Positions 29,742 through 54,725 of a stretch of DNA of 64,000 nucleotides are shown here, in pieces. Source of the DNA: Comamonas sp. B21-038 (GTDB lineage: Bacteria; Pseudomonadota; Gammaproteobacteria; Burkholderiales; Burkholderiaceae_C); assembly GCF_022387135.1 (NCBI RefSeq), contig NZ_CP092462.1, positions 2,480,001 to 2,544,000 of the forward strand, read 5' to 3'. The position numbers and the translations under genes are program-made. The notes beneath the pieces are model-generated. The model was given only the letters and a program-made list of their open reading frames with translations. It did not search any database and was not told the origin of the DNA. The stretch's first letter is position 1. Every line of letters begins with the position of its first letter.

Positions 29742-29757
29742 TACTTGCCGACCGGTA
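29742..29757. promoter_or_regulatory. Operator A (TetR-type palindrome), monooxygenase side
   Basis: TACTTGCCGACCGGTA belongs to the four-site motif of this locus. Read towards the monooxygenase gene it begins TTTACCGG, the same register as in the other promoters. It lies about 104 bases from operator B. Confidence 0.7.
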
Positions 29758-29845
29758 AACAACAGGGTTTCCCCGCAAGCGTTTTGGAGGGGACAGGTCC
29801 AGGGTAATCCCGGGCTTGCAGCGCTGCTGCGGCTGCTAAACTTTT

Positions 29846-29861
29846 TACCTGCCGACAGGTA
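29846..29861. promoter_or_regulatory. Operator B, acyl-CoA ligase promoter
   Basis: TACCTGCCGACAGGTA has perfect 6-bp arms (TACCTG/CAGGTA). It is identical to operator D at 54355-54370. A -10-like TAAACT (29837-29842) abuts it upstream, and the ligase ATG is 24 bases downstream with AAGGAG between, so a bound repressor would cover the transcription start. Confidence 0.8.
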
Positions 29862-29884
29862 TATAAAACAAAACAAGGAGCAAC

Positions 29885-31537
29885 ATGCAAGGGTTAATGC
29901 AGCAGCGCGCGCTGCGGATTTCCGGCTTGCTGGAACATGCAGCACGCTTTCATCCCCAGGTGGAAGTCGTCTCCCGCACGCCGGATGGCGCGCTCACGCG
30001 CTCGAACTGGCTGACCGTGTCCCAGCGCTCGCGGCGCCTGGCCGCCGCCCTGCTGCGCCAGGGCATGGCCAGCGGTGCACGCGTGGCTACTCTGGCCTGG
30101 AACACGCACCGCCACCTGGAGCTGTACTACGCCGTGTCGGGCGCGGGCGCCGTGCTGCACACTGTCAACCCGCGCCTGTTTGCCGACCAGATCCGCTACA
30201 TCCTCAACCACGCGGCCGATGATTATGTGTTCTTTGACCTGAGCTTTGCCGGCCTGGTGGCCGAACTGGCGCCCAGCCTCACAACCGTGAAGGCCTATGT
30301 GGCGCTGTGCCAGCCCGGCCAGCTGCCCGCCATGGACCTGCCCGCCCCGCTGCTGTGCTACGAAGACCTGGTGGCCCAGGACGCCGGCGATTTTGACTGG
30401 CCCGAGTTGGCCGAAGACAGCGCCTCATCGCTGTGCTACACCTCGGGCACCACCGGCAACCCCAAGGGCGTGCTCTACAGCCACCGCTCTACCGTGCTGC
30501 ATTCCTGGGTGGTCTGCGCTGCCGATGGCCTGGCCTTGCGCGCCCGCGATTGCGTGCTGCTCACCGTGCCGATGTTCCATGTCAACGCCTGGGGCCTGCC
30601 CTATGCCAGCGCCATGTGCGGCGCCAAGCTGGTGCTGCCCGGGCCGGACTTGAGTGGCAAGGCGCTGTACCAGCTGATGCGCGATGAGGGCTGCACCTTC
30701 TCGCTGGGCGTTCCCACCGTCTGGATGGGCTTTTTGCAATATGTAGAGAGCCTGCCCGCCGGCGACAAGGAGGCCTTAAAGCTCGAACGCATCATGATGG
30801 GCGGCTCTGCCGCGCCCCGCGCAATGATCGACCAGTTCGACAGCCTGCTGGGTGTGACCGCCAACCAGGCCTGGGGCATGACCGAGACCAGCCCCGTCGC
30901 CACCGTCAGCACCCTGCTGCCCCAGCATGAGGCACTGGCCCGCGACGCGCGCATCGATGTGCGCGCCCGCCAGGGCCGGCCCATGTATGGCGTGGATGTG
31001 GCCATCTTCAATGACGAGGGTCAGCAGCTGCCGCCCGGCGACCCGGCCCCTGGCGAGCTGCGCGTGCGCGGCCCCTGGGTCATCTCCGCCTATTACGGGC
31101 AAGAGGCCGGCTCGGCGCTGGATGCGCAAGGCTGGTTCAGCACCGGCGATGTGGCACGGATGGATGAAGAAGGCTTTGTGCAGATCACCGACCGCGCCAA
31201 GGATGTCATCAAGTCCGGCGGCGAATGGATCTCGTCGATCGACATCGAGAACCTGGCGCTGGCCCACCCCGCTGTCAAGGAAGCCGCCGTCATCGGCGTG
31301 CACCACGAACGCTGGCAGGAACGCCCGCTGCTGGTCATCGTGCGCAAACCCGGCACCGATGTGAGCGGCCAGGACGTGCTGGACTTTATGAAGGACCGGC
31401 TGGCGCGCTGGTGGCTGCCCGATGCGGTGGAGTTTGTCGATGAGCTGCCCCACACGGCTACCGGCAAGCTGCTCAAGACCCGGCTGCGCGAGCAGTTCAA
31501 AGGCTACCAGCTGCCGGCCGCAACAGCTGCCCACTAA
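29885..31537 (+). CDS. Acyl-CoA ligase (medium-chain, AMP-forming)
   Basis: The 550-residue adenylate-forming enzyme has the P-loop [11 protein letters not shown] at 185-195, WGMTETSP for ATP/acyl binding, the hinge region [22 protein letters not shown] and the catalytic lysine (Lys528) in [12 protein letters not shown]. It converts a carboxylic acid to its CoA thioester through an acyl-AMP. It resembles medium-chain ligases of the AlkK type. First gene of the plus-strand operon, with operator B at its promoter, it probably activates the hydroxy- or dicarboxylic acid produced after ring opening. Confidence 0.92.
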
Positions 31538-31634: not shown

Positions 31635-32555
31635 ATGAACGCCCTCACCGCGCCGGCGCTGGCCGCGCGCATCCATCCTCTGCTGCCCCAGCGCGATCTG
31701 CTGGGCGAATGCCCGCTGTGGGATGTGGCCACGCAATCGCTGTACTGGATTGATGGCCGCGCCCAGTTGGTACACCGCTACTGGCCGGCAGATGGCCGGC
31801 AGCAGCAGTGGGCGCTGCATGCCCATATCGGCTCGATCGCGCTGTGCCGCAGCGGGCGCCTGCTGCTGGCGCTGGAAGATGACTTCCATTTTCTGGACCC
31901 GGACAGCGGCCAGACCACGCCGATGCGCGTGCAGGTACAGCACAGCGCCGAGCGCATGCGCCTGAACGACGGGCGCTGCGACCGGGGCGGCCGCTTTGTG
32001 GTCGGCTCGATGAGCATGACGCCGCAGTCCCCCACCGGCAAGCTCTACCAGCTGAGCGGCGATGGCCGCTTGCGCGAGCTGGACCAAGGCTTTCAGGTCG
32101 CGAACGCCACCTGTTTTAGCCCCAACGGCCGCTGGCTCTACTTTGCCGACAGCCCGGCACGCCAGATCTGGCGCTATGCCTATGACCCGGCCACCGGTGC
32201 CTGCGGTGCGCGTGAGGCTTTTATTGATACCGCTGCACTGGGCCTGGCGCCCGATGGCGCCACCGTCGATGCCCAGGGCTACCTCTGGGTGGCCATGGTG
32301 CTCAACGGCCAGCTGGCCCGCTTTACGCCCAGTGGCGAGCTGGCGGCCACGGTGGACTTTCCCGCCGATGCCTTCATCACCTGCCCGGCCTTTGGTGGCC
32401 CCGCGCTGCAGACCATCTACCTCACCTCGATCAGCAACAGCGGCAACCTGCTGCGCTCCAGCCACCCGGATGCGGGGGCCGTCTTCGTCATCGACGGCCT
32501 GGCCCTGCCGGGGCTGGAAGAAGCGCGTTTTGACGACAGCCAGAGCCCCCGCTGA
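31635..32555 (+). CDS. SMP-30/gluconolactonase-family lactonase
   Basis: The 306-residue beta-propeller has the metal ligands of the SMP-30 family: Glu in GECPLWD, Asn in MRLNDGRCD and Asp in APDGATVD, plus Asn in QVANATCFSPNG. Family members hydrolyse lactones using a divalent metal. Beside a Baeyer-Villiger-type enzyme the likely job is to open the resulting lactone, rather than gluconolactone. The ribosome site AGGAGA precedes the ATG. It follows the ligase gene by 97 bases. Confidence 0.88.
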   Translation: MNALTAPALAARIHPLLPQRDLLGECPLWDVATQSLYWIDGRAQLVHRYWPADGRQQQWALHAHIGSIALCRSGRLLLALEDDFHFLDPDSGQTTPMRVQVQHSAERMRLNDGRCDRGGRFVVGSMSMTPQSPTGKLYQLSGDGRLRELDQGFQVANATCFSPNGRWLYFADSPARQIWRYAYDPATGACGAREAFIDTAALGLAPDGATVDAQGYLWVAMVLNGQLARFTPSGELAATVDFPADAFITCPAFGGPALQTIYLTSISNSGNLLRSSHPDAGAVFVIDGLALPGLEEARFDDSQSPR

Positions 32556-32603
32556 GACCGGCGCGGCGAACCCCATTTTTATTGATACCAGGAGACAAAC
32601 ACC

Positions 32604-33356
32604 ATGACACAACGCTTTGCAGGCAAGGTCGCACTCGTGACCGGCGGCGCACAGGGCATCGGCCGCGCCATCGTCCAGGCCATCGCTGATGAGGGCGGCA
32701 GCGTCGGCATTCTGGACCGCGCCGAGGACAAGGCCGCCGAGGTGGCCGCAGCCATCGTGGCCCAGGGCGGCCGCGCCCATGCCTATGGCGGCAATGTGGC
32801 CGACCGCGACAGCTTTAGCAGCGCGATTGCCGATCTGAAGCAGCGCTACGGCCGCTTCGACATCATGGTCAACAACGCCATCTGGGTGCGCTACGGCCCG
32901 ATTGCCGACATCACGCCAGAGGCGCTGCAGCGCATGGTGGGCACCGGCTTCAACTCCATCGTCTGGGGCATCCAGACAGCAGCAGAAGCCATGGACGACG
33001 GCGGCAGCATCGTCAACATCGCCTCGGCGGCCGCCTTTATCGGCATGCCCCAGGGCATGGTGTACTGCGGCGTCAAGGCCGGGGCGCTGGGCCTGTCGCG
33101 CGCAGCAGCGGCAGAGCTGGGGCCACGCGGCATCCGCGTCAACTCGGTCTGCCCCGGCTCCATCCCGACCGAAGGCGTGGGCATCAATGTCGATGCAGAA
33201 AAAGTACGCCTGCGCATCGCCAAGACGCCGATGGGGCGCCTGGGCACGGTGCAGGACATTGCCCGCGCCGCCTGCTTTTTCGCGTCTGACGACAGCCGCT
33301 TTGTCACCGGCGAATCGATGCTGGTCGACGGCGGCGCCACCCAGTCCTTCATCTGA
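32604..33356 (+). CDS. Short-chain dehydrogenase/reductase
   Basis: This 250-residue classical SDR has TGGAQGIG for NAD(P), NNAIWVRYG in place of the usual NNAG, IASAAAFIG with the catalytic Ser, and the active-site pair Tyr-x-x-x-Lys in YCGVK. VDGGATQSFI ends the chain. It probably oxidises an alcohol intermediate to a ketone or the reverse. It is tightly placed after the lactonase (AGGAGACAAACACC before the ATG) and before livG. Confidence 0.9.
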   Translation: MTQRFAGKVALVTGGAQGIGRAIVQAIADEGGSVGILDRAEDKAAEVAAAIVAQGGRAHAYGGNVADRDSFSSAIADLKQRYGRFDIMVNNAIWVRYGPIADITPEALQRMVGTGFNSIVWGIQTAAEAMDDGGSIVNIASAAAFIGMPQGMVYCGVKAGALGLSRAAAAELGPRGIRVNSVCPGSIPTEGVGINVDAEKVRLRIAKTPMGRLGTVQDIARAACFFASDDSRFVTGESMLVDGGATQSFI

Positions 33357-33370: not shown

Positions 33371-34144
33371 ATGACTGCTCCCCCCGAGGCCGATGCCCCC
33401 ATCCTGGAGGCGCGCCAGCTCTGCCGCCAGTTCAGCGGCTTCTATGCCGTCAAGGATGTGAACCTCCAGGTCAAGCGCCATTCGGTGCATGCGCTGATCG
33501 GCCCCAATGGTGCCGGCAAGACCACCTGCTTCAACCTGCTGACCACCTTTTTGCGCCCCAGCTCGGGCCAGGTGCTGTTCAACGGGCGTGATATCTCGCG
33601 CAGCGACCCGGCCAGCGTGTCGGCGCTGGGTCTGGTGCGCTCGTTCCAGATTGCGGCTGTCTTCAGCCACATGACGGTGCTGGAGAACGTGCGCATTGCG
33701 CTGCAGCGCAAGACCGGCGGCACGTTCACCTTCTGGCGCTCAGTCAAGGTGCTGAGCGCGCTGGACGAGCGCGCGATGGACCTGCTCGATAGCGTGGGCC
33801 TGACGCGCTGGAAAAACGTCAAGGCTTGCGACCTGCCCTATGGCCGCAAGCGCGTGCTGGAGCTGGTCACCACGATCGCGATGGAGCCCGAAATGATCCT
33901 GCTGGACGAGCCCATGGCGGGCCTGGGCCATGAGGACATCTGGCCGGTGGTGGAGCTGATCGGCAAGGTGGCGCAGGGGCGCACCGTGCTGATGGTGGAG
34001 CACAACATGAAGGTGATATCGCAGCTGTGCGAGACCGTCACCGTGCTGCAGGCCGGCCAGGTGCTGGCCGAAGGCAGCTATGACGAGGTATCGCGCGACC
34101 CGAGGGTCATTGAAGCCTATGTCGGAGGGGCCGCCCATGCCTGA
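33371..34144 (+). CDS. livG: Branched-chain amino acid-type ABC transporter ATPase (LivG-like)
   Basis: The 257-residue ATPase has Walker A GPNGAGKTT at 44-52, the signature region as LPYGRKR and Walker B MILLDEPMAGL with the LivG-type spacing. It couples ATP hydrolysis to import through LivH/LivM. Its end overlaps livF by 8 bases. In this operon the transporter most likely imports a carboxylate or CoA precursor rather than leucine. Confidence 0.93.
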   Translation: MTAPPEADAPILEARQLCRQFSGFYAVKDVNLQVKRHSVHALIGPNGAGKTTCFNLLTTFLRPSSGQVLFNGRDISRSDPASVSALGLVRSFQIAAVFSHMTVLENVRIALQRKTGGTFTFWRSVKVLSALDERAMDLLDSVGLTRWKNVKACDLPYGRKRVLELVTTIAMEPEMILLDEPMAGLGHEDIWPVVELIGKVAQGRTVLMVEHNMKVISQLCETVTVLQAGQVLAEGSYDEVSRDPRVIEAYVGGAAHA

Positions 34145-34889
34145 GAACAACCAAAACGCCCACGCCAACAACGGCAGCAACACCGCACCGCGCCAGATGC
34201 TGCAGGTGCAGAACCTGCGCGCCTGGTATGGCGAAACGCTGGCGCTCGACGGCATCGACCTGCATGTCGGCGAAGGCGAGGTCGTCTGCCTGCTGGGCCG
34301 CAATGGCGCCGGTAAGACAACCACCTTGCGCGCCATCATGGGCCTGCTCAAAAAGCGTGAGGGCCAGATCAGCATCCAGGGCAAGCCCACCGAAGGCCTG
34401 CCGCCCGAGGCCATTGCCCACCTGGGCGTGGCCTATTGCCCGGAGGAGCGCGGCATTTTTGCCAGCCTCAGCACCGAAGAGAACCTGATGCTGCCGCCCC
34501 TGCTGCACCCCGGCGGGCTGACGGTGGAGGAGATCTACCAGGTCTTCCCCAACCTGCATGCGCGCCGCAAAAGCCCGGGCACCCGCCTGTCGGGCGGTGA
34601 GCAGCAGATGCTGGCCATTGCCCGCATTCTGCGCACCGGCGCGCGCCTGCTGCTGCTCGATGAGGCCACCGAAGGGCTGGCACCGGTCATCGTGCAGAAG
34701 ATCGGCCAGACGCTGGAGATGATCCGCGCGCGCGGCTACACGGTGCTGATGGTGGAGCAGAACTTCCGCTTTGCCGCATCGGTGGCGGACCGCTTCTACG
34801 TGATCGAGGAAGGGCGCCTGGCCAGCCACTTCCACCGCGCCGAGCTGGAAACGCGGCGCGACGAGATCGAAGCGCTGCTGGGACTGTGA
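34137..34889 (+). CDS. livF: Branched-chain amino acid-type ABC transporter ATPase (LivF-like)
   Basis: The 250-residue ATPase has Walker A GRNGAGKTT at 54-62, signature LSGGEQQM and Walker B LLLLDEATEGLAP; the last motif and EERGIF are typical of LivF. The start at 34137 overlaps livG; GGAGGGG serves as ribosome site. The N-terminal 20 residues are Asn-rich and variable. It forms the ATPase pair with LivG. Confidence 0.93.
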   Translation: MPENNQNAHANNGSNTAPRQMLQVQNLRAWYGETLALDGIDLHVGEGEVVCLLGRNGAGKTTTLRAIMGLLKKREGQISIQGKPTEGLPPEAIAHLGVAYCPEERGIFASLSTEENLMLPPLLHPGGLTVEEIYQVFPNLHARRKSPGTRLSGGEQQMLAIARILRTGARLLLLDEATEGLAPVIVQKIGQTLEMIRARGYTVLMVEQNFRFAASVADRFYVIEEGRLASHFHRAELETRRDEIEALLGL

Positions 34890-34906
34890 CAGGCGGAGAC
34901 AATACG

Positions 34907-35788
34907 ATGGATACTCTTTTCGGAATCCCGACAGCCGCGCTGATCGGCCAGCTCGTGGTGGGCCTGATCAATGGCTCGTTCTACGCGCTGATGAGCCTGG
35001 GCCTGTCGATCATCTTCGGCCTGCTGCATGTGGTGAACTTTGCCCACGGCGCACAGTACATGCTGGGCGCCTTTGTGGCCTGGGGCCTGCTGCACTACCT
35101 GGGGCTGAGCTACTGGTGGGCGCTGATCCTGGCGCCGCTGGTGGTGGCGGCCTTTGGCATCCTGCTGGAGCGCACGATGCTGCGCCACTTGTACGCGGTG
35201 GACCATGTCTACGCGCTGCTGCTCACCTTCGGCATCTCCATCCTGATGGAGGGCGCCTTCCGGCTGTGGTTTGGCGTCAGCGGCCAGCCCTACCCCAACC
35301 CGCTGCAAGGCGGCATCGATGTGGGCCTGAGCTTTTTGCCGATGTACCGCGTCTGGGTGATCCTGGCGGGCCTGGCCGTCTGCCTGGTGACCTGGTACTT
35401 TATCGAAAAAACCAAGCTGGGCGCCTACCTGCGCGCCGCCAACGAGAACACGCCGCTGGTGCGCACTTTCGGCATCAATGTGCCGCGCATGCTGACCCTG
35501 ACCTATGCGCTGGGCGTGGGCCTGGCCGGCTTCAGCGGCGTGATGGCCGCGCCCATCTACCAGGTCAGCCCGCTGATGGGTTCGAACCTGATGATCATCG
35601 TCTTTGCCGTGGTCGTCATCGGCGGCATGGGCTCGATCATGGGATCGATCATCACCGGCTTTGCGCTGGGCGCCATCGAAGGCCTGACCCGCGTCATCTA
35701 CCCCGAAGGCGCCGGCGTGGTCATCTTCATCGTGATGATCATCGTGCTGGCCGTGCGCCCCAACGGCCTGTTTGGTAGAGCGCACTGA
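34907..35788 (+). CDS. livH: Branched-chain amino acid-type ABC permease (LivH-like)
   Basis: The 293-residue membrane protein has about eight helices and LivH motifs: GLINGSFYALMSLGLSIIFG, VNFAHGAQYMLGAF, AANENTPLVRTFGIN and VVVIGGMGSIMGSIITG. The start at 34907 (MDTLFGIP) has GGCGGAGA as ribosome site. It is one half of the membrane channel together with LivM. Confidence 0.93.
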   Translation: MDTLFGIPTAALIGQLVVGLINGSFYALMSLGLSIIFGLLHVVNFAHGAQYMLGAFVAWGLLHYLGLSYWWALILAPLVVAAFGILLERTMLRHLYAVDHVYALLLTFGISILMEGAFRLWFGVSGQPYPNPLQGGIDVGLSFLPMYRVWVILAGLAVCLVTWYFIEKTKLGAYLRAANENTPLVRTFGINVPRMLTLTYALGVGLAGFSGVMAAPIYQVSPLMGSNLMIIVFAVVVIGGMGSIMGSIITGFALGAIEGLTRVIYPEGAGVVIFIVMIIVLAVRPNGLFGRAH

Positions 35789-35852
35789 TGCGCCCGCGCC
35801 GCCCTGCACCCTGGGTCTCCACCCAAGCTCTTGTCTTTCCCAAGGATTGAAC

Positions 35853-36866
35853 ATGCATTTCTTCTCACAACGCACCAACACCATCTTGCTGGTGCTGGCG
35901 CTGGTGGCCCTGCTGCTGGCGCCGCTGGTGGCCTACCCGGTCTTTCTGATCAAGCTGATGTGCTACGCGCTGCTGGCCGCATCGGTCAACCTGCTGATGG
36001 GTTACGCCGGCCTGCTGTCCTTTGGCCACGCCATGTTCTTTGGCACGGCCGGCTACGCCGCCGCGCATGCCATCAAGGTCTGGGGCTGGGACGGCTCGGC
36101 CGCCATCCTGCTGGCCATGCTCTGCGCGATGGCCGTGGCCGTGGTCACCGGGCTGCTGGCCATCCGCCGCCATGGCATCTACTTCTCGATGATCACCTTG
36201 GCCTTCTCCCAGGTCATCTACTTCTTCGCGTTGCGCCTGCCCTTTACCGGTGGTGAGGACGGCATCCAGAACGTGCCCCGGCCGGAGGTGTTTGGCTTTA
36301 TCTCGCTGGCCGACAACACCACGCTGTACTACTTTGCCGCCACCCTGGTCGCCGCCGCCTTCTGGCTCATCTACCGCATCGTCTATTCGCCCTTCGGCCA
36401 GGTGCTGCGCGCCATCCGCGACAGCGAGGCGCGCGCCCAGTCGCTGGGCTACCAGGTGCTGCGCTACAAGCTGGTGATCTTTGTGCTGTCGGCCGCGCTC
36501 GCCGGCCTGGCCGGTGCGCTCAAGGTCATCACCTTCCAGCTGGCCACCCTCAACGATGTGAACTGGACCACCTCGGGCGAGGCGCTGCTCATCTGCATCG
36601 TCGGCGGCCTGCAGACCTTGCTGGGCCCTGTCATCGGCGCGGCCATCATCGTCAGCATGCAGAACTACCTGGTCGCCATGGCCGAGTGGGTGCTGATCAT
36701 CCAGGGCCTCGTCTTTGTCGTCGTCGTGATGCTGTTCCGCAAGGGCATCATCGGCCAGCTCTACGCCTGGCTGGAAACCCGCCAGGCACGCCAGGCGGCA
36801 CCACAGTTGGAGGCCCACAACCAAGCCGAGCGCCAGAGCCGCAGCCAAACTGGACAAGGAGCATGA
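35853..36866 (+). CDS. livM: Branched-chain amino acid-type ABC permease (LivM-like)
   Basis: The 337-residue permease has LLMGYAGLLSFGHAMFFGTAGYAAA, AIRDSEARAQSLGY and VGGLQTLLGPVIGA, all typical of LivM. The start at 35853 is preceded by AAGGA. The C-terminal tail is Gln/Arg-rich and variable. It overlaps the following SDR gene by four bases. A matching periplasmic binding protein is encoded separately at 53053-54276 under an identical operator. Confidence 0.92.
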   Translation: MHFFSQRTNTILLVLALVALLLAPLVAYPVFLIKLMCYALLAASVNLLMGYAGLLSFGHAMFFGTAGYAAAHAIKVWGWDGSAAILLAMLCAMAVAVVTGLLAIRRHGIYFSMITLAFSQVIYFFALRLPFTGGEDGIQNVPRPEVFGFISLADNTTLYYFAATLVAAAFWLIYRIVYSPFGQVLRAIRDSEARAQSLGYQVLRYKLVIFVLSAALAGLAGALKVITFQLATLNDVNWTTSGEALLICIVGGLQTLLGPVIGAAIIVSMQNYLVAMAEWVLIIQGLVFVVVVMLFRKGIIGQLYAWLETRQARQAAPQLEAHNQAERQSRSQTGQGA

Positions 36867-37693
36867 GCATGAGCGACCCAACATCCGTACCCGCGCAAGC
36901 CGCTGTCCAGCCCCAAGCCCCCAGCCATTTCCCCGAAACGCCCGGCTTGCTGCAAGGCCGCCTGGCCCTCATCACCGGCGCAGCCAGCGGCATCGGCCAG
37001 GCCATAGCCATCAGCTTTGCCAAGGCCGGCGCCCGCGTCATCGTGACCGACCTGGACACTGCACGCTGCGCCGACACCCTGGCCCAGGTAAAAGCCGCAG
37101 GCACAGACGGCTGGGCCTTTGCGCTCGACGTCACCGATCTGGAGGCCTGCCAAACACTGGCCGCCCGCATCGGCAGCGACATCGGCCCGGTGGACACCCT
37201 CGTCAACAACGCCGGCCTGCTGATCCGCGAAGGCATCGACCACCCCCAGGCATCGCGCCACCTGCGCCAGGTCATCGATGTGAACGTGTTTGGCCTCTAC
37301 AACATGGTGCAGTCCTGGCTGCCTGCGCTGCGCGCCACGCGCGGCTGCATCCTCAACATCGCCTCCGGCGCGGCCTTTATCGCCCAAGGCAACGCCATGG
37401 GCTACTCCGCCTCCAAAGGTGCCGTAAAAATGGCCACCCAGACCTTGGCCCTGGACCTGGGCCGCGACGGCATCCGCGTCAACGCCCTCGCCCCCGGCGT
37501 CATCCACACCCCCATGACCGAAGCCACCCGCAACAACCCGCAGCGCCTACAAGGCTTTATCCAGCGCACGCCTGCTGGGCGGATTGGCGTGCCGCAAGAG
37601 CTGGCCGGGCCGGCGGTGTTTTTGGTGTCGGGGCTGGCTAGTTATGTGAATGGGGTGACGTTGCCGGTGGATGGAGGGACGGTGGCGGTTTAG
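36863..37693 (+). CDS. Short-chain dehydrogenase/reductase
   Basis: This 276-residue SDR has TGAASGIG, NNAGLL, NIASGAAFI and YSASK in the active site, and VDGG near the C terminus. A variable Pro/Gln-rich tail of about 30 residues precedes the core. ATGs at 36863 and 36869 are both possible; the second is better spaced from AAGGA. It is the last gene before the Gabija island. Its partner in the pathway, the enoyl-CoA hydratase, resumes at 42859. Confidence 0.88.
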   Translation: MSMSDPTSVPAQAAVQPQAPSHFPETPGLLQGRLALITGAASGIGQAIAISFAKAGARVIVTDLDTARCADTLAQVKAAGTDGWAFALDVTDLEACQTLAARIGSDIGPVDTLVNNAGLLIREGIDHPQASRHLRQVIDVNVFGLYNMVQSWLPALRATRGCILNIASGAAFIAQGNAMGYSASKGAVKMATQTLALDLGRDGIRVNALAPGVIHTPMTEATRNNPQRLQGFIQRTPAGRIGVPQELAGPAVFLVSGLASYVNGVTLPVDGGTVAV

Positions 37694-38946: not shown

Positions 38947-39130
38947 CACTCTCTTCCTTCTATGGCGCCCATTACTTCAATATATTTCCTCACCCGTGAC
39001 GCGCGATTCATTATATTTAAACTGGAAAATTCCTACTGAGAATCAAGCGCTAGCACCAAAGATATATTAATGGCATTCTCAATGCATGAACCAAACTAGG
39101 CCCTATGGCAATATCGATCGGAATTTATTT

Positions 39131-40762: not shown

Positions 40763-40763
40763 T

Positions 40764-46664: not shown

Positions 46665-48778
46665 GGCTGTTCCTCCTGCGCGCGCAGCTCGATCACCGCA
46701 TCCAGGCACATGGCGCCCCGGGTGCGCACCATCAGCGGGTTGATGTCCACGCTCTGGATGCTGTCGGCATGCTGCATCGCAAACTCCGACAGCCGGCACA
46801 ACGCCTGCACCAGTGCGGCCTCGTCGTAGTGCGGCCCACCGCGCCAGCCGCGCAGCAGCTGGCTGGAGCGCACCGCATCGACCAGCGCCTGGGCGCGGTC
46901 TGCCGTGAGCGGTGCCGATGCCAGCGCCACATCCTGGAACAGCTCCACCGCCGTGCCGCCGCTGCCATACATCACCATCTGGCCAAAGGTCGGGTCGCGG
47001 TGCAGGCCCAGGATCACCTCCACACCGCCACTGAGCATCGGGGCGATCAGCACGCCCTCCAGGCGGGCACCGGGCCGCGCTGTGCGGGCGCGGTCCATCA
47101 AGGTACCAAAGGCGCGTTCGACGGCAGCAGCATCCTGCAGGTTGAGCAGTACACCGCCGACCTCGGTCTTGTGCGCGATGTCGGGCGAGACAATCTTGGC
47201 CACGACCGGGAAACCGACTTCTGCCGCTGCTGCGGCCGCCTGGGCGGCGGTGCTGCACAGGTACTCCGGCGGCACCGGCAGGCCGGCAGCCGACAGCGCG
47301 CGCTTGGCGCCGCTTTCGGTATGCACATCGTCCAGCGCCAACGCGGGCGCGGCAGGCGGTTCGCCGCCGGGCAGCTGGTACAGCGCCTGCCAGCGCTGGC
47401 GGATCTTGGCCAGGCCGGCTACGGCGCGCACGGCGCGGGTCGGGTCCTCAAACACGGCCACGCCCTGCTGCTCCAGCGCGCTGCGCACCTGGGGCAAGGC
47501 CAGCATCACCAGGATGGTCAGGCGCTCGCGGTGCTGCGCGGCCAGTTCCGCAATCTCTTGCTGGGTGCTGGCAAAGCGCTCGGGCGACAGGCCCACATGG
47601 GCCAGGTAGCCCAGCACCGCGCCATAGCGCGTGTGCTCCAGCATCACACCCAGGGTGCGCGCGGTGCCACTGGCCACCGAGGTGACCTGGGCCGTCATGT
47701 CCAGCGGGTTGGCGGCCACCGCAAAAGGCAGCAGCGCCAGGGTCGCCTCGCGGGCGGGGGCGGGCAACGGTGGCAGCTCCATGCCCTGGGCGCCCGCCTC
47801 GTCGGCCATCAGCACGCCAATGCCGCCCGAGCCGGTGAACACGCCCAACTCGTCATTGGCCGGCAGCACGCCGCTGACGGTGTAGAGGTAGGCGATGTCC
47901 AGCATCTCCTCGATGGACTCGGGCCGCAGGGCGCCGCATTCGCGGAACACCGTGTCGTAGACCTTGTCATTGCCGGCCAGCGAGCCGGTATGGGTGGAGG
48001 CAGCGGCGGCACCCAGCTCGGTGCGCCCTACCTTCATGATCAGCACTGGCTTGCCGGCGCGGGCCGCCTTGAGCAGGGCGCGGCGCAGGCGGTTGCCGTC
48101 GCGGCAAGATTCGACCGCCGCGCAGATGATGCGGGTGTCCGGGTCGTCGGCCAGGTAGTCGATGCTCTCGGCCACATCGACATCGGCCTCGTTGCCGGTG
48201 GCGATGATCTTGCTGAAACCCAGGCCGCGCAAGGTGGCCATGCCGTAGGCGGCCGAGCCAAAGGCGCCGCTTTGCGTGGCCAGCGAGATGGCGCCCGGCC
48301 GGGGCTGGGCGCCATTGAGAAAGGTGGAGAAGGTCGAGAAAAAGCGCGCCGGCACATTGAGCAGGCCCAGCGAGTTGGGGCCGAGCATGCGCACATCGGC
48401 AGCGCGGCACAGGCCCACCATGCGGTCCTGCAGCGCGCGGCCGGCCGCATCAATCTCGGCAAAGCCGGCCGTCATCACCTGGATGGCCTTGACGCCCTTG
48501 GCAATGGCATCGCGCACGGCCTCTTCCACCCCGGCCACCGGCACGCAGATGATGGCCTGGTCGACCGGGAAAGGGATATCGGACACCTTTTGGTAGGACT
48601 GCAGGCCCTGGATCAGCGCGCCGCTGCGGTTGACCGGGTAGATGGGCGCGGCAAAGCCGGCTTCGAGCATGAAGCGCAGCGGGCGGCCGCCAATGCGCTC
48701 GGGATCGGACGAGGCGCCCACCAGCGCTACCGAACGGGGGTGGAACAAGGCGTCGAGGGACGAAGATGCGTGGCTCAT
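46661..48778 (-). CDS. Acyl-CoA synthetase, NDP-forming (acetate-CoA ligase type)
   Basis: The 705-residue protein has a CoA-binding domain (SVALVGASSDPERIGGRPL), succinyl-CoA ligase-like domains with the phosphorylated histidine motif STHTGSLAGND (His263) and an ATP-grasp domain (about 480-700, with VGFPVVAKIVSPDIAHKTEVGGV). It makes an acyl-CoA from acid, CoA and ATP. It lies between an acyl-CoA dehydrogenase and the SnoaL gene in the minus-strand operon and may activate a side-chain acid different from that of the AMP-forming ligase at 29885. Confidence 0.9.
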   Translation of the reverse strand: MSHASSSLDALFHPRSVALVGASSDPERIGGRPLRFMLEAGFAAPIYPVNRSGALIQGLQSYQKVSDIPFPVDQAIICVPVAGVEEAVRDAIAKGVKAIQVMTAGFAEIDAAGRALQDRMVGLCRAADVRMLGPNSLGLLNVPARFFSTFSTFLNGAQPRPGAISLATQSGAFGSAAYGMATLRGLGFSKIIATGNEADVDVAESIDYLADDPDTRIICAAVESCRDGNRLRRALLKAARAGKPVLIMKVGRTELGAAAASTHTGSLAGNDKVYDTVFRECGALRPESIEEMLDIAYLYTVSGVLPANDELGVFTGSGGIGVLMADEAGAQGMELPPLPAPAREATLALLPFAVAANPLDMTAQVTSVASGTARTLGVMLEHTRYGAVLGYLAHVGLSPERFASTQQEIAELAAQHRERLTILVMLALPQVRSALEQQGVAVFEDPTRAVRAVAGLAKIRQRWQALYQLPGGEPPAAPALALDDVHTESGAKRALSAAGLPVPPEYLCSTAAQAAAAAAEVGFPVVAKIVSPDIAHKTEVGGVLLNLQDAAAVERAFGTLMDRARTARPGARLEGVLIAPMLSGGVEVILGLHRDPTFGQMVMYGSGGTAVELFQDVALASAPLTADRAQALVDAVRSSQLLRGWRGGPHYDEAALVQALCRLSEFAMQHADSIQSVDINPLMVRTRGAMCLDAVIELRAQEEQP

Positions 48779-48789: not shown

Positions 48790-49941
48790 TCAGGCGCGGG
48801 CGGCGGTGGGTGCCGATTCTGCGGCGACTTCAGCCGCAATCTCGGCGGCCATGTCGGCTGCCAGGCTGTCGAGCTGCTCGTAGCGGTCGCCCCACTGCAG
48901 GCTGCAGCCTATCGCATGCATGGCCAGGCGGGCCGCAGGCAGCTCGCGCGACATGCCAATGCCGCCATGCAGCTGGATCGCCGACTCGCCCACCTGGCGG
49001 GCCGCGATCGACAGGTAGTGCTTGAGCAGCGCCACTGCATGCGCGTCACTATCCCCCAGGTCAAAGGCCACGACGCGCTCGCGCACCATGCCGCGCACGC
49101 TCTCATAGGCCACATACATCTCTACCGTGCGGTGGCGCAGCGCCTGGAAGGTGGAGAGCTGCACGCCAAACTGCTGGCGCGTGTTCAGGTACTCGATGGT
49201 CTGCTCCACCATCGCGCCAATGGCGCCGACGATCTGCGCGCAGCAGACCAGCGCGCCCACGGTATTGGCGCGCTCGGCAGCGGCCACGGCCGCCCGGCCC
49301 CGTTGCAGCACGGCACTGGCGGGCAGGCGTGTGGCCTTCAGGCTCAAGTCGGCGGTCAACCGGCCGTCATGGCCAGCCCAGCTTTGCAGGCTGCCGCCCA
49401 GCTGGTCGCGGCTGGCCAGCAGCAGCAAGGCTTCGCCAGCAGCGCTGCGGGCCAGAAAGAGCAGATGGCTGGCCGGCTCGCTCAAGTCGATGCCGCGCAG
49501 GCTGCCCTGCAGTTGCACGCCTTCGGCATCGACCATCGCCGTCAGGCTGCAGCTGCCGTCATGCGCAAACACGGGGGCGATGGAGACTTCGCCCGCGGCC
49601 AGCAGGCCCAGCATCTGGGCCACATCGTCGCGGCCGGGGATGGCGCCCAGCACCGCTGGCACCACGGCGCAGCGTGCGACCAGCGGCGTGGTCAGGCCAT
49701 AGCGGCCAGCGGCCTCTGCGATGGAGGCCACATCGGCAAAGGTCGAGCCCGCGCCGCCACTGGCCTCGGGCACCAGCACGGCTTGCCAGCCGAGTTCCAG
49801 AAACTGCTGCCAGCTGTCACTGGCCTGGTCGGAGGGCTCGGCTTCGGTCAGCGTGGCATTCACCGCCTGGGCATTGGCCGCCACCCGCAGCGTTGTGTCA
49901 TACAGGTCGCCCGGAAACATGGGAGAGGCTTGAAAAGGCAT
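48790..49941 (-). CDS. Acyl-CoA dehydrogenase (short form, subunit 2)
   Basis: The 383-residue flavoprotein has a weak N-terminal domain and a typical C-terminal part (YLNTRQQFGVQLSTFQALRH, then QLHGGIGMSRELPAARL). It is paired with the gene directly upstream on the same strand (3 bases apart). Such tandem pairs in steroid and related degraders encode heteromeric acyl-CoA dehydrogenases with one active site per pair. The usual catalytic Glu is not obvious here, in line with the role of a partner subunit. Confidence 0.88.
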   Translation of the reverse strand: MPFQASPMFPGDLYDTTLRVAANAQAVNATLTEAEPSDQASDSWQQFLELGWQAVLVPEASGGAGSTFADVASIAEAAGRYGLTTPLVARCAVVPAVLGAIPGRDDVAQMLGLLAAGEVSIAPVFAHDGSCSLTAMVDAEGVQLQGSLRGIDLSEPASHLLFLARSAAGEALLLLASRDQLGGSLQSWAGHDGRLTADLSLKATRLPASAVLQRGRAAVAAAERANTVGALVCCAQIVGAIGAMVEQTIEYLNTRQQFGVQLSTFQALRHRTVEMYVAYESVRGMVRERVVAFDLGDSDAHAVALLKHYLSIAARQVGESAIQLHGGIGMSRELPAARLAMHAIGCSLQWGDRYEQLDSLAADMAAEIAAEVAAESAPTAARA

Positions 49942-49944
49942 GGG

Positions 49945-51123
49945 TCAGGCTCCAAAGATATCGCGTGCAATCACGTTTTTTTGTACTTCGCTGGTACCGC
50001 CGGCCAGGGTGCGTGAGCGGTAGAAGAGATAGGTGTGGATCAGCTCGCGCTTGAGCTCCACATCGGCGGGGCTGCCCTCGGGCAGGCTCGGAATCAGGCG
50101 CGCCGCGTAGTCGGGGCTCATGTCGAAGGCGATACCGATGATCTGCTGGGCCAGGTCGGAGCAGAACAGCTTGAGCGCCGAGGATTTGGACGAGGCCAGG
50201 GTGCCCTGCATCTCTTCGTCGATGGCGCTGATCAGCATCTCCTTGGCGCCAGCCACGGCTGCCTGGGCCAGGAACAGACGCTCCAGCAGCATGTGCTGGC
50301 TGGCGCCCTGTTGCGTGCGGCCGCGCTCGCGCAGCGGCTGCTCGATCTGCTCCAACAGGCGCACCAGGCGCGGCACGGTGGCGGGCGACAGGCGCTCGCG
50401 GTCGAGCAGGAACTTGGCGCAAGCCCAGCCGCCGCCCTCTTCGCCAATCAGGTTGGCCACGGGCACGCGCACATCGCGCAGGAACACCTCGTTGACATGG
50501 TGCCAGTGGTCAATCGTCGGGATGGGGCGCACCTCGATGCCGGGCGTGTCCATCGGCACCAGCAGCAAGGAGATGCCGGCCTGCTTCTTGCCCTCTTTGG
50601 AAGTACGCACCAGGGTGTACATCATGTCCGCCTCCTGCGCATGGGAGGTCCAGATCTTCTGGCCGTTGATGACATAGTCATCGCCATCGCGCACTGCTGC
50701 GGTGCGCAGCGAGGCCAGGTCGGAGCCGGCACCGGGCTCGGAGTAGCCCTGGCACCACCATTCGCTGCCGTCCACAATGCGCGGCAGGTAGCGCTCCTTT
50801 TGCACGGGCGTGCCAAAGTGCATGATCACCGGGCCGATATGGCCGATGCCATGGTGGTAGAGCGGCGGGCAGTCTTCCTGCGCCATCACCTCCTCAAACA
50901 GGTAGCGCTGCTGCATGTCCCAGCCGGTGCCGCCCCACTCGATCGGCCAGTTGGGGGCGCTCCAGCCCTTGCGTTGCAGGATCTTGGCCCACGCGCTCAT
51001 CTCGGCGCGGCCCAGCTTCTCGTTGGCGCGGACCTTGGCTTTCAGCGCGGGCGGGCAGTGCTGCTGCGCAAAGTCGCGCAGGGTTTGTCGAAAGTCGGCA
51101 TAGGGATCGGTGGTTGCTGTCAT
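49945..51123 (-). CDS. Acyl-CoA dehydrogenase (subunit 1)
   Basis: The 392-residue protein shows a complete acyl-CoA dehydrogenase fold: WWCQGYSEPGAGSDLASL, GQKIWTSHAQEADMMYTLVRT and a C terminus LAGGTSEVQKNVIARDIFG. It oxidises acyl-CoA to enoyl-CoA with FAD. It probably forms a complex with the next gene product; the close spacing of two different acyl-CoA dehydrogenase genes supports this. Confidence 0.92.
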   Translation of the reverse strand: MTATTDPYADFRQTLRDFAQQHCPPALKAKVRANEKLGRAEMSAWAKILQRKGWSAPNWPIEWGGTGWDMQQRYLFEEVMAQEDCPPLYHHGIGHIGPVIMHFGTPVQKERYLPRIVDGSEWWCQGYSEPGAGSDLASLRTAAVRDGDDYVINGQKIWTSHAQEADMMYTLVRTSKEGKKQAGISLLLVPMDTPGIEVRPIPTIDHWHHVNEVFLRDVRVPVANLIGEEGGGWACAKFLLDRERLSPATVPRLVRLLEQIEQPLRERGRTQQGASQHMLLERLFLAQAAVAGAKEMLISAIDEEMQGTLASSKSSALKLFCSDLAQQIIGIAFDMSPDYAARLIPSLPEGSPADVELKRELIHTYLFYRSRTLAGGTSEVQKNVIARDIFGA

Positions 51124-51186: not shown

Positions 51187-52170
51187 TCATTCCTGGGTAA
51201 TGTGCTTTTCTCGGATCACGGCGGCCCAGCGCGGGCGCTGGGCATCCAGGTAGGCCGTGAAGTCTTCGGGGCCGAGCAGATGCAGCTCGCCACCGGGACG
51301 GGTCACGCCCTCTGCTACGGTTGGCACTTCCACCACGGCGCGCAGATCGCGGTAGATGCGCTGCTGCAGTGCGGCGGGCACCTTGGCCGGCATGAAAAAG
51401 CCAAAGAAGCTGCTGCAGCTGTAGCGCTTGAGCTCAGGCGCGGACGACTGGGAGAACGGGGTCAGCGGCAGCGCGCTGCGCACCGGTTTGTCACTGGCAA
51501 CGCCCAGCACCTTCATGCGACCTGCCTGTACGTAGCTGACCGAGCTGGGCGCATCCAGCAACGCAGCCACCTCGCCAGCCATCAAGGCATTCAACGCCGG
51601 GGCATTGCCCCGGTACGGTGCGTGGATGATGTGCGCGCCCACGGCCGAGGCCAGCATCTCGGCACAGATATGCGGGCTGGATCCGACGCCCGACGAGGCG
51701 AAGGCTACCTTGCCATCGTTGGCGCGCATATAGCTGGCGAACTCGGCCAGGTTGCTGGCGGGCACCTGCTTGCCCACATAGAGCACGCTGGGTGATTCGG
51801 ACACCATCATCAGCGGCTTGAGGTCCTGCGGGTCATAGGGCAGCCGGGCCATCATCAGCGGGTTGGTCAGGTAACCCAGGCTGCTCAGCAGCAGGGTATG
51901 GCCATCGGCCGGGGCCCGGGCGACCAGGGCCGTGCCAATCGTGGTGCCGCCGCCGGGGCGGTTGTCGATCACCACCGGCTTGCCCCATTTCTCGGCCAGC
52001 ACCGGTGCCATGGCGCGGGCCACCTGGTCGGTAAAGCCGCCGGCCGCATAGGGCACGACGATGGTGACCTGCTTGTCAGGGAACTCCGCCGCCTGCACCA
52101 CCGCCCCGGCCCAGGCACCGATGAGCACGCCCCAGCTGGCGGCCCGCTTGAATTTTTGAGAGATAGACAC
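51187..52170 (-). CDS. Bug/TctC-family periplasmic solute receptor
   Basis: The 327-residue secreted protein has a signal peptide ending near VVQA, then FPDKQVTIVVPYAAGGFTDQVARAMAP, DNRPGGGTTIGTALV, ADGHTLL and TRPGGELHLLGPEDF, typical of Bug proteins. It probably binds a carboxylate in the periplasm. It is the only transport-related gene in the acyl-CoA dehydrogenase operon, between the SDR gene and the dehydrogenases; no TctA/TctB partner is visible. Confidence 0.92.
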   Translation of the reverse strand: MSISQKFKRAASWGVLIGAWAGAVVQAAEFPDKQVTIVVPYAAGGFTDQVARAMAPVLAEKWGKPVVIDNRPGGGTTIGTALVARAPADGHTLLLSSLGYLTNPLMMARLPYDPQDLKPLMMVSESPSVLYVGKQVPASNLAEFASYMRANDGKVAFASSGVGSSPHICAEMLASAVGAHIIHAPYRGNAPALNALMAGEVAALLDAPSSVSYVQAGRMKVLGVASDKPVRSALPLTPFSQSSAPELKRYSCSSFFGFFMPAKVPAALQQRIYRDLRAVVEVPTVAEGVTRPGGELHLLGPEDFTAYLDAQRPRWAAVIREKHITQE

Positions 52171-52222
52171 GGCAGGTCTCCATCACACAGTACGTTGTTG
52201 CTATGGGCTGGCCAACTGCGGC

Positions 52223-53053
52223 CTAGCCAGCGGCAGCGGCCTGGGGCACGCGGCGCTGCGCCGCCTGGTCCTGCCAGGCCTGTTGGGGCAGCGAGGCCAT
52301 CATGGTGTGGGCCAGCCCGCCATCGACCACCAGCTCGGCGCCGTTGATGTAGGCAGCCGCATCGCTCAGCAAGAAGCTGACGGCGCCCGCTATATCACCC
52401 GGCCCGCCAATGCGGCGCAGCGGCACGCGCTGCTCGCGGTGGGCCTTGGCGGCCGGGTCGGCATAGGCCAGCGCAGTACCCGGCGTGGCAATCAAACCGG
52501 GCGACAGCGCATTGGTGCGTACACCCAGCGGCCCCCACTCGGTCGCCAGCTGGCGCACCAGCATCAGCGCGGCTGCCTTGCTGGCACTGTAGGCGCCCAG
52601 CGGCGGCGTGGCATGGCTGGCCGATACCGAGGTGATGACCACGATGCTGCCGCCACTGGCACGCAGCGGCGCCAGCGCCGCCTGGGCCAGCAGCAACGGC
52701 GCACGTGCATTGAGCGCGAAGGTCCGGTCCCAGTCGGCGACTGGGTAATCGCTCAGCGCACCGGGAAAGGCCGCGCCCGCATTGCTGACCAGCCCATCGA
52801 GCCCGCCCCAGTGCTGCACGGCAGCGGCCAGGGCCTGGGCGGCAAAGTCCAGCCCCGACAGATCACCCGCCAGCACCTGGACCTGGGCGCCCAGCGCTTG
52901 CAGCTCGGCGGCCAGCGCATCCAGCTCGGCGGCATGCTGGTCCAGCAGGGTCAGCTGCGCCCTACCGCCCTGGTCCTGGGCATCCTGGGCCAGGCGCAGC
53001 GCAATGGCGCGGCCAATGCCGCGTGCGGCACCGGTGACGAGGGTGCGGCCCAT
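52223..53053 (-). CDS. Short-chain dehydrogenase/reductase
   Basis: This 276-residue SDR has TGAARGIG at the N terminus, NAGAAFPG, ITSVSAS and YSASK in the active site, and VDGGLAHTMM. It starts at 53053, overlapping the TGA of the binding protein gene; a GTG three bases earlier is also possible. It probably oxidises a hydroxy intermediate of the pathway. Confidence 0.9.
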   Translation of the reverse strand: MGRTLVTGAARGIGRAIALRLAQDAQDQGGRAQLTLLDQHAAELDALAAELQALGAQVQVLAGDLSGLDFAAQALAAAVQHWGGLDGLVSNAGAAFPGALSDYPVADWDRTFALNARAPLLLAQAALAPLRASGGSIVVITSVSASHATPPLGAYSASKAAALMLVRQLATEWGPLGVRTNALSPGLIATPGTALAYADPAAKAHREQRVPLRRIGGPGDIAGAVSFLLSDAAAYINGAELVVDGGLAHTMMASLPQQAWQDQAAQRRVPQAAAAG

Positions 53054-54276
53054 CACTGCCCCTTGAGCAGGTCGCAGACGCTTTCGGAGGCGGGGCGCCA
53101 GGCGTCTTCCGGCGCGATGGTGCCGATGATCTTGTAGTAGTCGAACTTGGCCTTGGACTCCGCCGGCGTCTTGACCTGCACCGCATAGAGCGGCCGCAGC
53201 ACCTGGCCGTCGGCCCGCACCTTGACCTGCTTGGAGAAGAAGTCGTTGACCGGCAGCTCGCGGATCTTGGCCGCCACGGCCTTGCCCTCGTCGGTACCGG
53301 CAGCCTGCACCGCCTGCAGGTAGTGCGTGGTGGCGCTGTAGGCACCGGCCATCAGGTAGGTGGGTGCGCCATTGTTATAGCGCGCCATGAAGCGCTTGGA
53401 CCAGGCCCGGGTCTCGTCGTTCTGGTCCCAGTAGAAGGGCAGCGCCAGCTGCAGGCCCTGGGCCACATCCAGGCCCATGGCGGTGACGCTGTTGATCGTC
53501 ATGCCAAACACGGCGACCTTCTGTCCACCCCGCGCAATGCGGTATTCAGCCGCTTGCTTGAGTGCGTTGGACAGATCCAGCCCCGCGTTGATGATGACAA
53601 TCGCCTCGGCACCGCTGGCCTGCGCCTGCAGCAGGTAGGACGAGAAATCGGCCGTGCCCAGCGGATGGCGCGTGACCCCGGCGACCTTGCCGCCGCCCTC
53701 TTTGATAAAGCGGGTGGCCTCGTCCAGGTAGGCCTGGCCAAAGGCGTAGTCGACCGCGATGAAGTAGAAGCTCTTGACGCCCTGCTTCAGCAGCGCCTTC
53801 ACCCCTGCCTTGGGCATCGCGTAGGAGTCGGCGACAAAGTTGAAATTCATCGGCGAGCAGGCCTTGTTGGTCAGGTCGGCCGTCGTGGTGCCTGCGATCA
53901 GGTAGGGCTTGCTGCGCTCCTTCATCAGCTGGGCCACCGTCAGCGCGATCGACGAGGCGGAGTTGCCGACGATCGTGTCGAACTTCTCCACATCCAGCCA
54001 GCGGCGGGTGATGCTCAGGCCAATGTCGGGCTTGTTCTGGTCATCCGCTACCACCACCTCGATGGGCTTGCCCAGCACCTTGCCACCAAAGTCCTCGACC
54101 GCCATCTTGACGGCCAGCGCATGGCCGGGCCCGCCGTTGCCCGAATAAGGCCCCGTCTGGTCCCCCATCACACCAATGCGGACCACGTCATCACTGACCT
54201 GGGCCCAGGACGCGGACGGCGCGGCCATGGCCGCCGATAACGACAAAAGCAATGCATGCGGGCGTACAGATTTCAC
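53053..54276 (-). CDS. Liv-type ABC transporter substrate-binding protein
   Basis: The 407-residue periplasmic binding protein (LivK/PBP type 1 fold) has an export signal (VKSVRPHALLLSLSAAMAAPSASWA), VRIGVMGDQTGPYSG and VVADDQNKPDIGLSITRRWLD. A GTG start at 54276 with AAGGAGA just upstream fits better than the much longer frame. It lacks a permease next to it, and its promoter holds operator D, identical to operator B in front of the operon that contains LivGFHM. It therefore very likely serves that transporter. Confidence 0.9.
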   Translation of the reverse strand: MKSVRPHALLLSLSAAMAAPSASWAQVSDDVVRIGVMGDQTGPYSGNGGPGHALAVKMAVEDFGGKVLGKPIEVVVADDQNKPDIGLSITRRWLDVEKFDTIVGNSASSIALTVAQLMKERSKPYLIAGTTTADLTNKACSPMNFNFVADSYAMPKAGVKALLKQGVKSFYFIAVDYAFGQAYLDEATRFIKEGGGKVAGVTRHPLGTADFSSYLLQAQASGAEAIVIINAGLDLSNALKQAAEYRIARGGQKVAVFGMTINSVTAMGLDVAQGLQLALPFYWDQNDETRAWSKRFMARYNNGAPTYLMAGAYSATTHYLQAVQAAGTDEGKAVAAKIRELPVNDFFSKQVKVRADGQVLRPLYAVQVKTPAESKAKFDYYKIIGTIAPEDAWRPASESVCDLLKGQ

Positions 54277-54725
54277 GTTGTCTCCTTGATCAGCTCTTTT
54301 TTTGCGATGAACCGTGTCTTTGGCCGGCCGTCCAGATCTTGGCGTTGGACTACATACCTGCCGACAGGTAAATAGTACAAACAAAAGCCTGAATGGCTTT
54401 CAGTGCTAACCCTTGGTCGCTCGGAGCTGTGTGTTTTTGCCGCTGCTGGATGGGGCTGGGGAGGCTGATGCACGGGTAGTGCTGGCGGGAACCAAAGGCC
54501 TGAGAAACTGCCGAAGGCGCCCTGCTCTGGGCGGCCGTTGCGCATGCCCCAGCAGGCAGGGGCCAACAAGAAAACCCCTCGGCTTTGGATAAGCAGAGGC
54601 GCGAAGGCGCATAGAAGGCGCCGCTGGGGGAGGCCGTAGCAAGCGTCGCCTGGCGCGAGCACTTGCCGATTCTCAAATTAATTGCCGCAAGCGCCCTGTT
54701 CCCAAGCGCTTGTGGCCGGACACGA
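54277..54725. other. Gap of 449 bases with operator D
   Basis: Only the first part, with the ribosome site and operator D (54355-54370), has a clear role. Open frames on the minus strand further on (with RRLLCAFAPLL) have no ribosome site and look like non-coding or remnant sequence. Confidence 0.45.
54355..54370. promoter_or_regulatory. Operator D, binding-protein promoter
   Basis: TACCTGCCGACAGGTA, identical in all 16 bases to operator B. Read on the minus strand a -10-like TACTAT (54372-54377 on the + strand) abuts it. The gene start is about 80 bases downstream. Confidence 0.8.

Follow-up and report, generated by a model that had tools for sequence, protein, structure and literature searches.

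A palindrome shared by four catabolic units of Comamonas sp. B21-038 as the probable operator of a local TetR-family repressor

The window analysed here is a whole stretch of 64,000 nucleotides from Comamonas sp. B21-038 (contig NZ_CP092462.1, positions 2,480,001 to 2,544,000), in which four copies of one palindrome stand before four sets of catabolic and transport genes. We propose, with a probability of roughly 85%, that the TetR-family protein encoded at 43981-44628 uses this palindrome as its operator. The sequence comparisons indicate the protein to be a local, pathway-specific repressor of the four units, probably released by a coenzyme A (CoA) ester. The presence and uniqueness of the sites, as well as their conservation and association with this TetR and these genes, are computed results. 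The regulon is new and the type of control is already known; under the proposed scheme, several catabolic operons become one unit under one switch.

In the window sequence, the 16-mer TACCTGCCGACAGGTA occurs identically at 29846-29861 and 54355-54370, and TACTTGCCGACCGGTA occurs at 29742-29757 and 42813-42828, the latter copy being the core of TTTACTTGCCGACCGGTAAA at 42811-42830; by inspection, 7 of 8 base pairs are symmetric in TACCTGCCGACAGGTA and 5 of 8 in TACTTGCCGACCGGTA. A first-pass annotation of this DNA had reported the palindrome at four places, each upstream of a different transcription unit, and both points stand: the 16-mers begin at 29742, 29846, 42813 and 54355, and all four sites are intergenic and face four different units. 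Extended to 20 bp, the operators are:

29740-29759, minus strand: O1 (20-mer), at the promoter of a Baeyer-Villiger monooxygenase (BVMO) gene; minus-strand reading TTTACCGGTCGGCAAGTAGG; position kept in the same-genus genomes G007, G014 and G018
29844-29863, plus strand: O2 (20-mer), TTTACCTGCCGACAGGTATA; acyl-CoA ligase/lactonase/Liv operon
42811-42830, plus strand: O3 (20-mer), TTTACTTGCCGACCGGTAAA; enoyl-CoA hydratase-tetR unit
54353-54372, minus strand: O4 (20-mer), minus-strand reading TTTACCTGTCGGCAGGTATG; binding-protein/short-chain dehydrogenase (SDR)/Bug/acyl-CoA dehydrogenase operon

O1 and O2 share one 260-bp divergent region between the BVMO start (29624, minus strand) and the acyl-CoA ligase start (29885, plus strand), where they are 104 bp apart, a distance that is identical in G007, G014 and G018.

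A search of the window with up to three mismatches returned six rows, corresponding to four places of which two are read on both strands, against a mean of 0.86 and a maximum of 3 rows in shuffled windows, and when the window was scanned with a 20-bp matrix, nothing but O1-O4 scored at least 11. The genome-wide motif search, which had been named as a test beforehand, gave no random scatter: across the 5.18-Mb genome, TACYTGCCGACMGGTA is matched exactly four times, each time in this locus and never elsewhere, and with two mismatches there are four further places in the whole genome. Chance occurrence of the palindrome is ruled out by the shuffles, by the genome search and by the co-occurrence in loci and family genomes described below.

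The same-genus search covered 37 genomes, counting the window's own. The TetR occurs at 94-96% identity in G007, G014 and G018, and in each of these three the symmetric pattern TACYKGYCGRCMRGTA has four exact matches and no more, before the same genes. Places with one mismatch to TACYKGYCGRCMRGTA are found in 33 of the 37 genomes, counts that carry little weight because the reversed control gives more. In G026, G031 and G009, where the TetR is 48-53% identical and the clusters are rearranged, the sites jointly precede the acyl-CoA ligase, the hydratase, the Bug/dehydrogenase operon, a porin, SDR1, the BVMO and tetR. The sites keep their place before the same genes despite a reshuffled order, which lends sequence support to the earlier suggestion that the pattern joins separate operons, and the operator would mark the gene set of a pathway left scattered by annotation.

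The association with the TetR itself was examined in the best 80 of 435 loci in named genomes that encode a relative. In 29 of these (L097-L125) the TetR is 46-98% identical over most of its length, and the other 51 carry only other TetR proteins. With a matrix built solely from the window's four sites, a score of at least 16 is reached by 67 matches in 28 of the 29 orthologue loci versus 7 matches in 7 of the 51 paralogue loci, and a score of at least 20 in 23/29 and 0/51, respectively; shuffled orthologue loci yield 0.33 matches per set at the lower threshold and none at the higher. L097 and L098 are nearly identical to the window; when they are set aside, 26 of 27 orthologue loci have sites. 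These loci are named Comamonas, Variovorax, Acidovorax, Polaromonas, Ottowia, Limnohabitans, Hydrogenophaga and Curvibacter, and 48 distinct sites give the 20-bp consensus YTTACCTGYC|GRCAGGTAAR. Mapped cluster genes cover 57.8% of the sequence in 27 loci, yet only one of the 63 sites there falls within such a gene. Mapped genes are matches to 30 query proteins, one of which, MR_enolase (54726-55890), was read out of frame (9 stops), which could affect the mapped-gene coverage only and no site or orthologue count.

We also considered that the motif might track the enzymes instead of the TetR. An alphaproteobacterial plasmid cluster of Pseudosulfitobacter holds a BVMO (65%), a lactonase (37%), NDP-forming ligases, Liv genes and hydratases, with a TetR match of only 34%, and the matrix scan of this one case found no site at a score of at least 13, a single test that speaks against such tracking.

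At the family level, the TetR was found at E <= 1e-40 in 9 of 399 genomes and a match to TTACCKGYCGRCMGGTAA with at most one mismatch in 10 of 399 (the two draws are taken as the same genomes by their handles, and the TetR listing names 29 of the 399). Near-exact sites are present in 6 of the 9 genomes with the TetR versus 4 of the 390 without it (Fisher p 3e-9). Both are found in G000, G474, G511, G721, G751 and G803, that is in 5 of 8 when the window's own genome is set aside; a lone site without a TetR at E <= 1e-40 occurs in each of G456, G622, G642 and G662. Of 11 TetR-bearing relatives searched with up to two mismatches, 8 have matches, at 32 places in total, and 31 of these lie no more than about 28 kb from the TetR gene on its contig, the exception being G751:C5. 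In 399 genomes of the order, the TetR search at E <= 1e-40 matched the window's own genome only. This tracking of site and orthologue across loci and genomes strongly supports the local TetR as the regulator, as had been suggested.

That the window holds a single TetR gene, as first described, was confirmed by a profile of the protein, to which tetR is the sole match among six-frame open reading frames of at least 60 residues (E <= 1). The protein scores 67 bits against PF00440 (cut-off 24) and 75.7 bits against PF17932, TetR_C_24 (cut-off 26.4), and falls short of the equivalog cut-off of all 25 matched NCBIfam models (ScbR, FadR, PsrA, KstR, BetI, RutR, AcrR and others), the best being ScbR with 63.1 bits against a cut-off of 150, with FadR at 48/200, PsrA at 46.1/300 and KstR at 30.1/280. 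Residues T57-F65 of the helix-turn-helix are invariant or nearly invariant in 30 sequences. The AlphaFold model has a helical fold (mean predicted local distance difference test, pLDDT, 84), for which Foldseek places PfmR at the top, followed by KstR2 and AibR, with 3dcf, DarR and FadR lower, all among the best 50 of 982 matches. The modelled fold suits release by an acyl-CoA, which is our best guess for the inducer because AibR, near in fold, was solved with isovaleryl-CoA.

Two putative promoters can be set against the operators:

29734-29762, minus strand: putative BVMO promoter; TTGTTT (29762-29757), a 17-bp spacer filled by O1, CATGAT (29739-29734)
42783-42811, plus strand: putative hydratase (ECH) promoter; TTGAGC-N17-TAATAT, ending at O3

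The layout with the operator in the spacer (spacer 17-18) recurs at the BVMO promoter in 6 of 8 distinct cases, namely the window, L101, L102, L110, L111 and L113. In the other two, L122 and G009, a site precedes the BVMO but a search for the layout pattern gave no match. The same layout is found at some hydratase promoters, as TTGACA-N17-TAANCT in L109, L110 and L111. The hydratase promoter TTGAGC-N17-TAATAT is plausible from the sequence, and in the aligned genomes TAATAT is kept in 5/5 and TTGAGC in 4/5 (TTGAGT in G018). There are, as judged from these layouts, two operator placements, within the -35/-10 spacer or immediately downstream of the -10, both of which would be suited to blocking the polymerase. 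The first-pass description of an operator lying over the start site, given for three of the promoters, would fit the hydratase promoter and probably those at O2 and O4; at the BVMO promoter the operator fills the spacer. A set of 49 promoter sites was assembled from the window and L099-L125 (score at least 16, a gene start on a single side, duplicates removed), to which the window contributes O4 only and in which gene names are the nearest labels and sometimes loose (fadB or Bug2 for a hydratase or Bug gene). Around these sites the consensus promoter score is higher toward the downstream gene (mean 7.68 vs 6.87, n=49, p 7.6e-5), and scores of at least 8.5 number 19 toward the gene versus 5 in the opposite direction.

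A second box was also observed in these regions. GGGTTA or GGGTAA, on either strand, is about 14-fold enriched within 60 bp of operators, a figure in which overlapping windows double-count a few occurrences. The box is present in the window at 29801-29811 and near 54407, and in L099, L100, L102, L103, L105, L107, L110, L111, L117, L124, G026 and G031. At Bug/dehydrogenase promoters it often lies 13-15 bp upstream of the operator, mostly as AGGGTWANYCC or near to it. Genome-wide, AGGGTWANYCC is found at 18 places versus 7 for a reversed control, and it is possibly read by a second regulator.

Several observations weigh against the TetR as the regulator of all four units, or against parts of that reading. 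The 351-bp gap between the hydratase gene and tetR holds no operator in the window, which weakens the case for control of tetR itself in this genome. A strict sigma-70 scan of three promoter regions found no promoter. The -10-like hexamers that had been described as abutting the palindrome do occur at O2 (TAAACT, 29837-29842), O3 (TAATAT, 42806-42811) and O4 (TACTAT, 54377-54372, minus strand), each 1-3 bases from the 16-mer, but we rejected them as a general rule, since TANNNT stands on the promoter side of 6 of the 49 sites versus 2 of 49 on the other side (p 0.27). G634, G764 and G776 have a TetR match of 48-51% identity and yet no site within two mismatches, and L118 is the sole orthologue locus without a site at a score of at least 16, so that either the code drifts or the cut-off includes sister regulators. 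Some loci and genomes are, by length and position, the same contigs (L098 and G007, L106 and G026, L125 and G009) and others are mutually close, as are L114-L116; this kinship, together with the different composition of the 51 paralogue loci, makes the p-values too small. As for the ligand, DarR, a c-di-AMP binder, is among the fold matches, and the fold alone therefore does not fix the ligand.

An alternative is that the operator is read by a regulator encoded elsewhere, for example a general fatty-acid regulator of the FadP type, with the TetR as a bystander. FadP is itself a TetR-family protein, and PMC5343134 predicts that it regulates the breakdown of fatty acids in Comamonadaceae. We consider this alternative unlikely, since a general regulator should be common, whereas only 10 of the 399 family genomes have the sites, and 6 of these also carry this TetR; the exact sites are moreover confined to this locus, 31 of the 32 near-exact places in relatives are near the TetR, and a site stands before the tetR gene itself in several relatives. 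It is slightly less probable still that the TetR acts as an activator or dual regulator on the same sites. Some operators do lie in the -35/-10 spacer, where bound proteins can activate (the MerR type), and several relatives have the second box at 13-15 bp on the upstream side of the operator. Operators that overlap the -10 and the start nevertheless suit repression, and the TetR proteins characterised so far are mostly repressors, as stated in PMC4424350.

The sites could, finally, be explained by shared descent or by a repeat element that plays no part in regulation. Across the whole O1/O2 and O4 intergenic regions the close Comamonas genomes are indeed alike, and conservation there proves little alone. 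However, the site is kept in distant relatives despite differing flanks and reshuffled genes, all but one of the 63 sites avoid the mapped cluster genes, and there are no exact copies elsewhere in the genome, which makes this explanation extremely improbable.

We therefore favor repression by the local TetR, a dimer of which would bind the 20-bp consensus and cover the -35/-10 spacer at the BVMO promoter, or the -10 and the start at the hydratase promoter and probably at the other two, thereby shutting the four units together. Binding, repression, the acyl-CoA inducer, the substrate class and, in the window, co-transcription of the hydratase gene and tetR are what we infer from the comparisons. 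The units, each taken as a single transcript from spacing and strand, contain the following genes:

27966-29624, minus strand: type I BVMO relative, nearest to phenylacetone and steroid monooxygenases (O1 unit)
25755-27866, minus strand: FadB-like hydratase/3-hydroxyacyl-CoA dehydrogenase, named from translation only (O1 unit)
24505-25689, minus strand: thiolase, named from translation only (O1 unit)
22480-24327, minus strand: acyl-CoA dehydrogenase, named from translation only (O1 unit)
29885-31537, plus strand: AMP-forming acyl-CoA ligase, domain evidence (O2 unit)
31635-32555, plus strand: SMP-30/gluconolactonase-like lactonase, domain evidence (O2 unit)
32604-33356, plus strand: short-chain dehydrogenase SDR1, named from translation, kept in relatives (O2 unit)
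33371-36866, plus strand: LivG, LivF, LivH and LivM ABC transporter genes, named from translation, kept in relatives, where the counterparts are annotated as ABC transporter ATP-binding proteins and branched-chain amino acid permeases (O2 unit)
36869-37693, plus strand: short-chain dehydrogenase SDR2, end of the ligase unit, named from translation, relatives compared (O2 unit)
42859-43632, plus strand: enoyl-CoA hydratase (PRK06495 subfamily), domain evidence (O3 unit)
43981-44628, plus strand: TetR-family regulator (TetR_N and TetR_C_24), the proposed repressor, 351 bp beyond the hydratase gene; domain, fold and orthologue comparison (O3 unit)
53053-54276, minus strand: Liv-type periplasmic binding protein, head of the unit, domain evidence (O4 unit)
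52223-53056, minus strand: short-chain dehydrogenase SDR3, named from translation, relatives compared (O4 unit)
51187-52170, minus strand: Bug/TctC-type binding protein, named from translation, annotated in relatives as tripartite tricarboxylate transporter binding protein (O4 unit)
48790-51123, minus strand: two acyl-CoA dehydrogenases, with the pimeloyl-CoA dehydrogenase models (small and large) as closest matches, neither reaching the cut-off (O4 unit)
46661-48778, minus strand: NDP-forming acyl-CoA ligase, domain evidence (O4 unit)
46083-46655, minus strand: SnoaL-like protein, domain evidence (O4 unit)

Together the units would supply uptake (the Liv transporter and binding proteins), the BVMO, the lactonase, dehydrogenases, CoA ligases and beta-oxidation enzymes for a putative route from a cyclic ketone through a lactone and a hydroxy acid to a CoA ester and beta-oxidation, and a CoA-ester intermediate from one of the ligases would probably free the repressor. 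The repressor probably also limits its own synthesis, because tetR in many relatives either comes after the hydratase gene or is preceded by an operator of its own; in 22 of the 29 named loci the hydratase gene is the immediate upstream neighbour of the orthologue. The repressor and operator could be used as a sensor, in that the compound whose CoA ester releases the repressor would identify the pathway.

A cyclic ketone or its alcohol is suggested as the substrate class because the BVMO is combined with the lactonase, the CoA ligases and the acyl-CoA dehydrogenases. The solved structures closest to the BVMO are phenylacetone monooxygenase (563.7 bits, residues 5-529) and steroid monooxygenase (531.4 bits). 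Type I BVMOs carry the fingerprint FxGxxxHxxxW, which the BVMO in the window fails, reading FGGQILRAARWP with Arg in place of His; among 16 sequences with this stretch, the window included, the position is Arg in 12 and His in 4. More tentatively, with the balance leaning slightly the other way, we may be dealing with an undescribed Comamonadaceae repressor family that has its own 20-bp code, senses a CoA ester and controls an undescribed route for a cyclic ketone or alcohol, from uptake to beta-oxidation, on chromosomes and large plasmids, with a BVMO that mostly has Arg for His. No publication was found for the motif strings or the combinations of BVMO and cluster enzymes, and none on the regulon among the titles and abstract openings listed, in a search that mostly left out subscription papers, and "undescribed" is limited accordingly; PMC6370202 deals with a different pathway.

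Related clusters are located on large plasmids in L179 (Comamonas antarctica NZ_CP054841.1), L177 (Variovorax PBL-E5 plasmid 3) and L178 (Pseudosulfitobacter), one of them with conjugation genes nearby, and the pathway may therefore move between bacteria. Two TetR orthologues are present in one cluster in L114-L116, L120 and L177, about 5 kb apart in L177, and these clusters show a diverged site such as CTTACTAACCGGCCGGTAGA; perhaps they represent a duplicated regulator with a shifted code.

Between SDR2 and the hydratase unit, the window contains a Gabija defence pair (39134-42470, minus strand; GajB 1.2e-200 and GajA 4.1e-247 by PADLOC), adjoined by a gene for a 328-residue protein (37966-38949, minus strand) that has no PADLOC match and is possibly an accessory gene or a bystander. 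The interval from SDR2 to the hydratase promoter (about 37700-42735 in the window; L075-L080) measures 5.5 kb in G018, 10 kb in G007 and 8.1 kb in G014, and within it these three genomes have no match to the Gabija pair or its 328-residue neighbour. The conserved block resumes at about 42735, right before the hydratase promoter, and by sequence comparison the interval looks like an insertion hot spot in the regulon that has left the operator intact. Behind O4, at 54726-59961, translations indicate a mandelate-racemase-like enzyme, an SDR, a Bug protein, a dihydrodipicolinate synthase (DHDPS)-like enzyme and a LysR gene, a set that also adjoins the regulon in three close relatives and is without an operator of its own.

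Of the known systems, KstR2 (4w97, 4w1u) has a similar predicted fold, with a template modelling (TM) score of 0.76-0.79 by query length and 23% identity. It controls part of a ring-degrading CoA pathway, mycobacterial cholesterol catabolism, and its operator AnCAAGnnCTTGnT is unlike the operator here; it belongs to a mycobacterial sterol system, whereas no sterol pathway was identified in this locus. AibR (5k7z, with isovaleryl-CoA and operator), the effector of which is an acyl-CoA by its entry title, and PfmR (3vpr) are among the nearest folds with 26-33% identity, come from other organisms and are compared here by fold. FadP is also a TetR-family protein, of beta-proteobacteria including Comamonadaceae, associated with acyl-CoA genes, and PMC5343134 predicts that in three taxa it has taken over the genes of fatty-acid degradation; the distribution of the TetR described here (9/399 family genomes at E <= 1e-40, sites local) speaks against its being FadP. 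The MbdR name is absent among the best 60 of 174 matches and, in the fold comparison, among the best 50 of 982. The MbdR regulon of Azoarcus sp. CIB, which serves 3-methylbenzoate, likewise has a TetR repressor within a catabolic cluster and one palindrome at several promoters, with operators over the -10, the -35 or the start, like the placements here, and it also includes transporter and CoA-ligase genes (PMC4424350). MbdR differs in serving an anaerobic aromatic pathway and in its operator arms, which read ATACN10GTAT versus TTACN10GTAA in the consensus of the 48 sites here; the N10 spacing is equal, and two of the window sites read ATACN10GTAA on one strand. The inducer of MbdR is, in that account, a CoA ester, 3-methylbenzoyl-CoA (PMC4424350), and by analogy a CoA ester is proposed to release the TetR of the present regulon.

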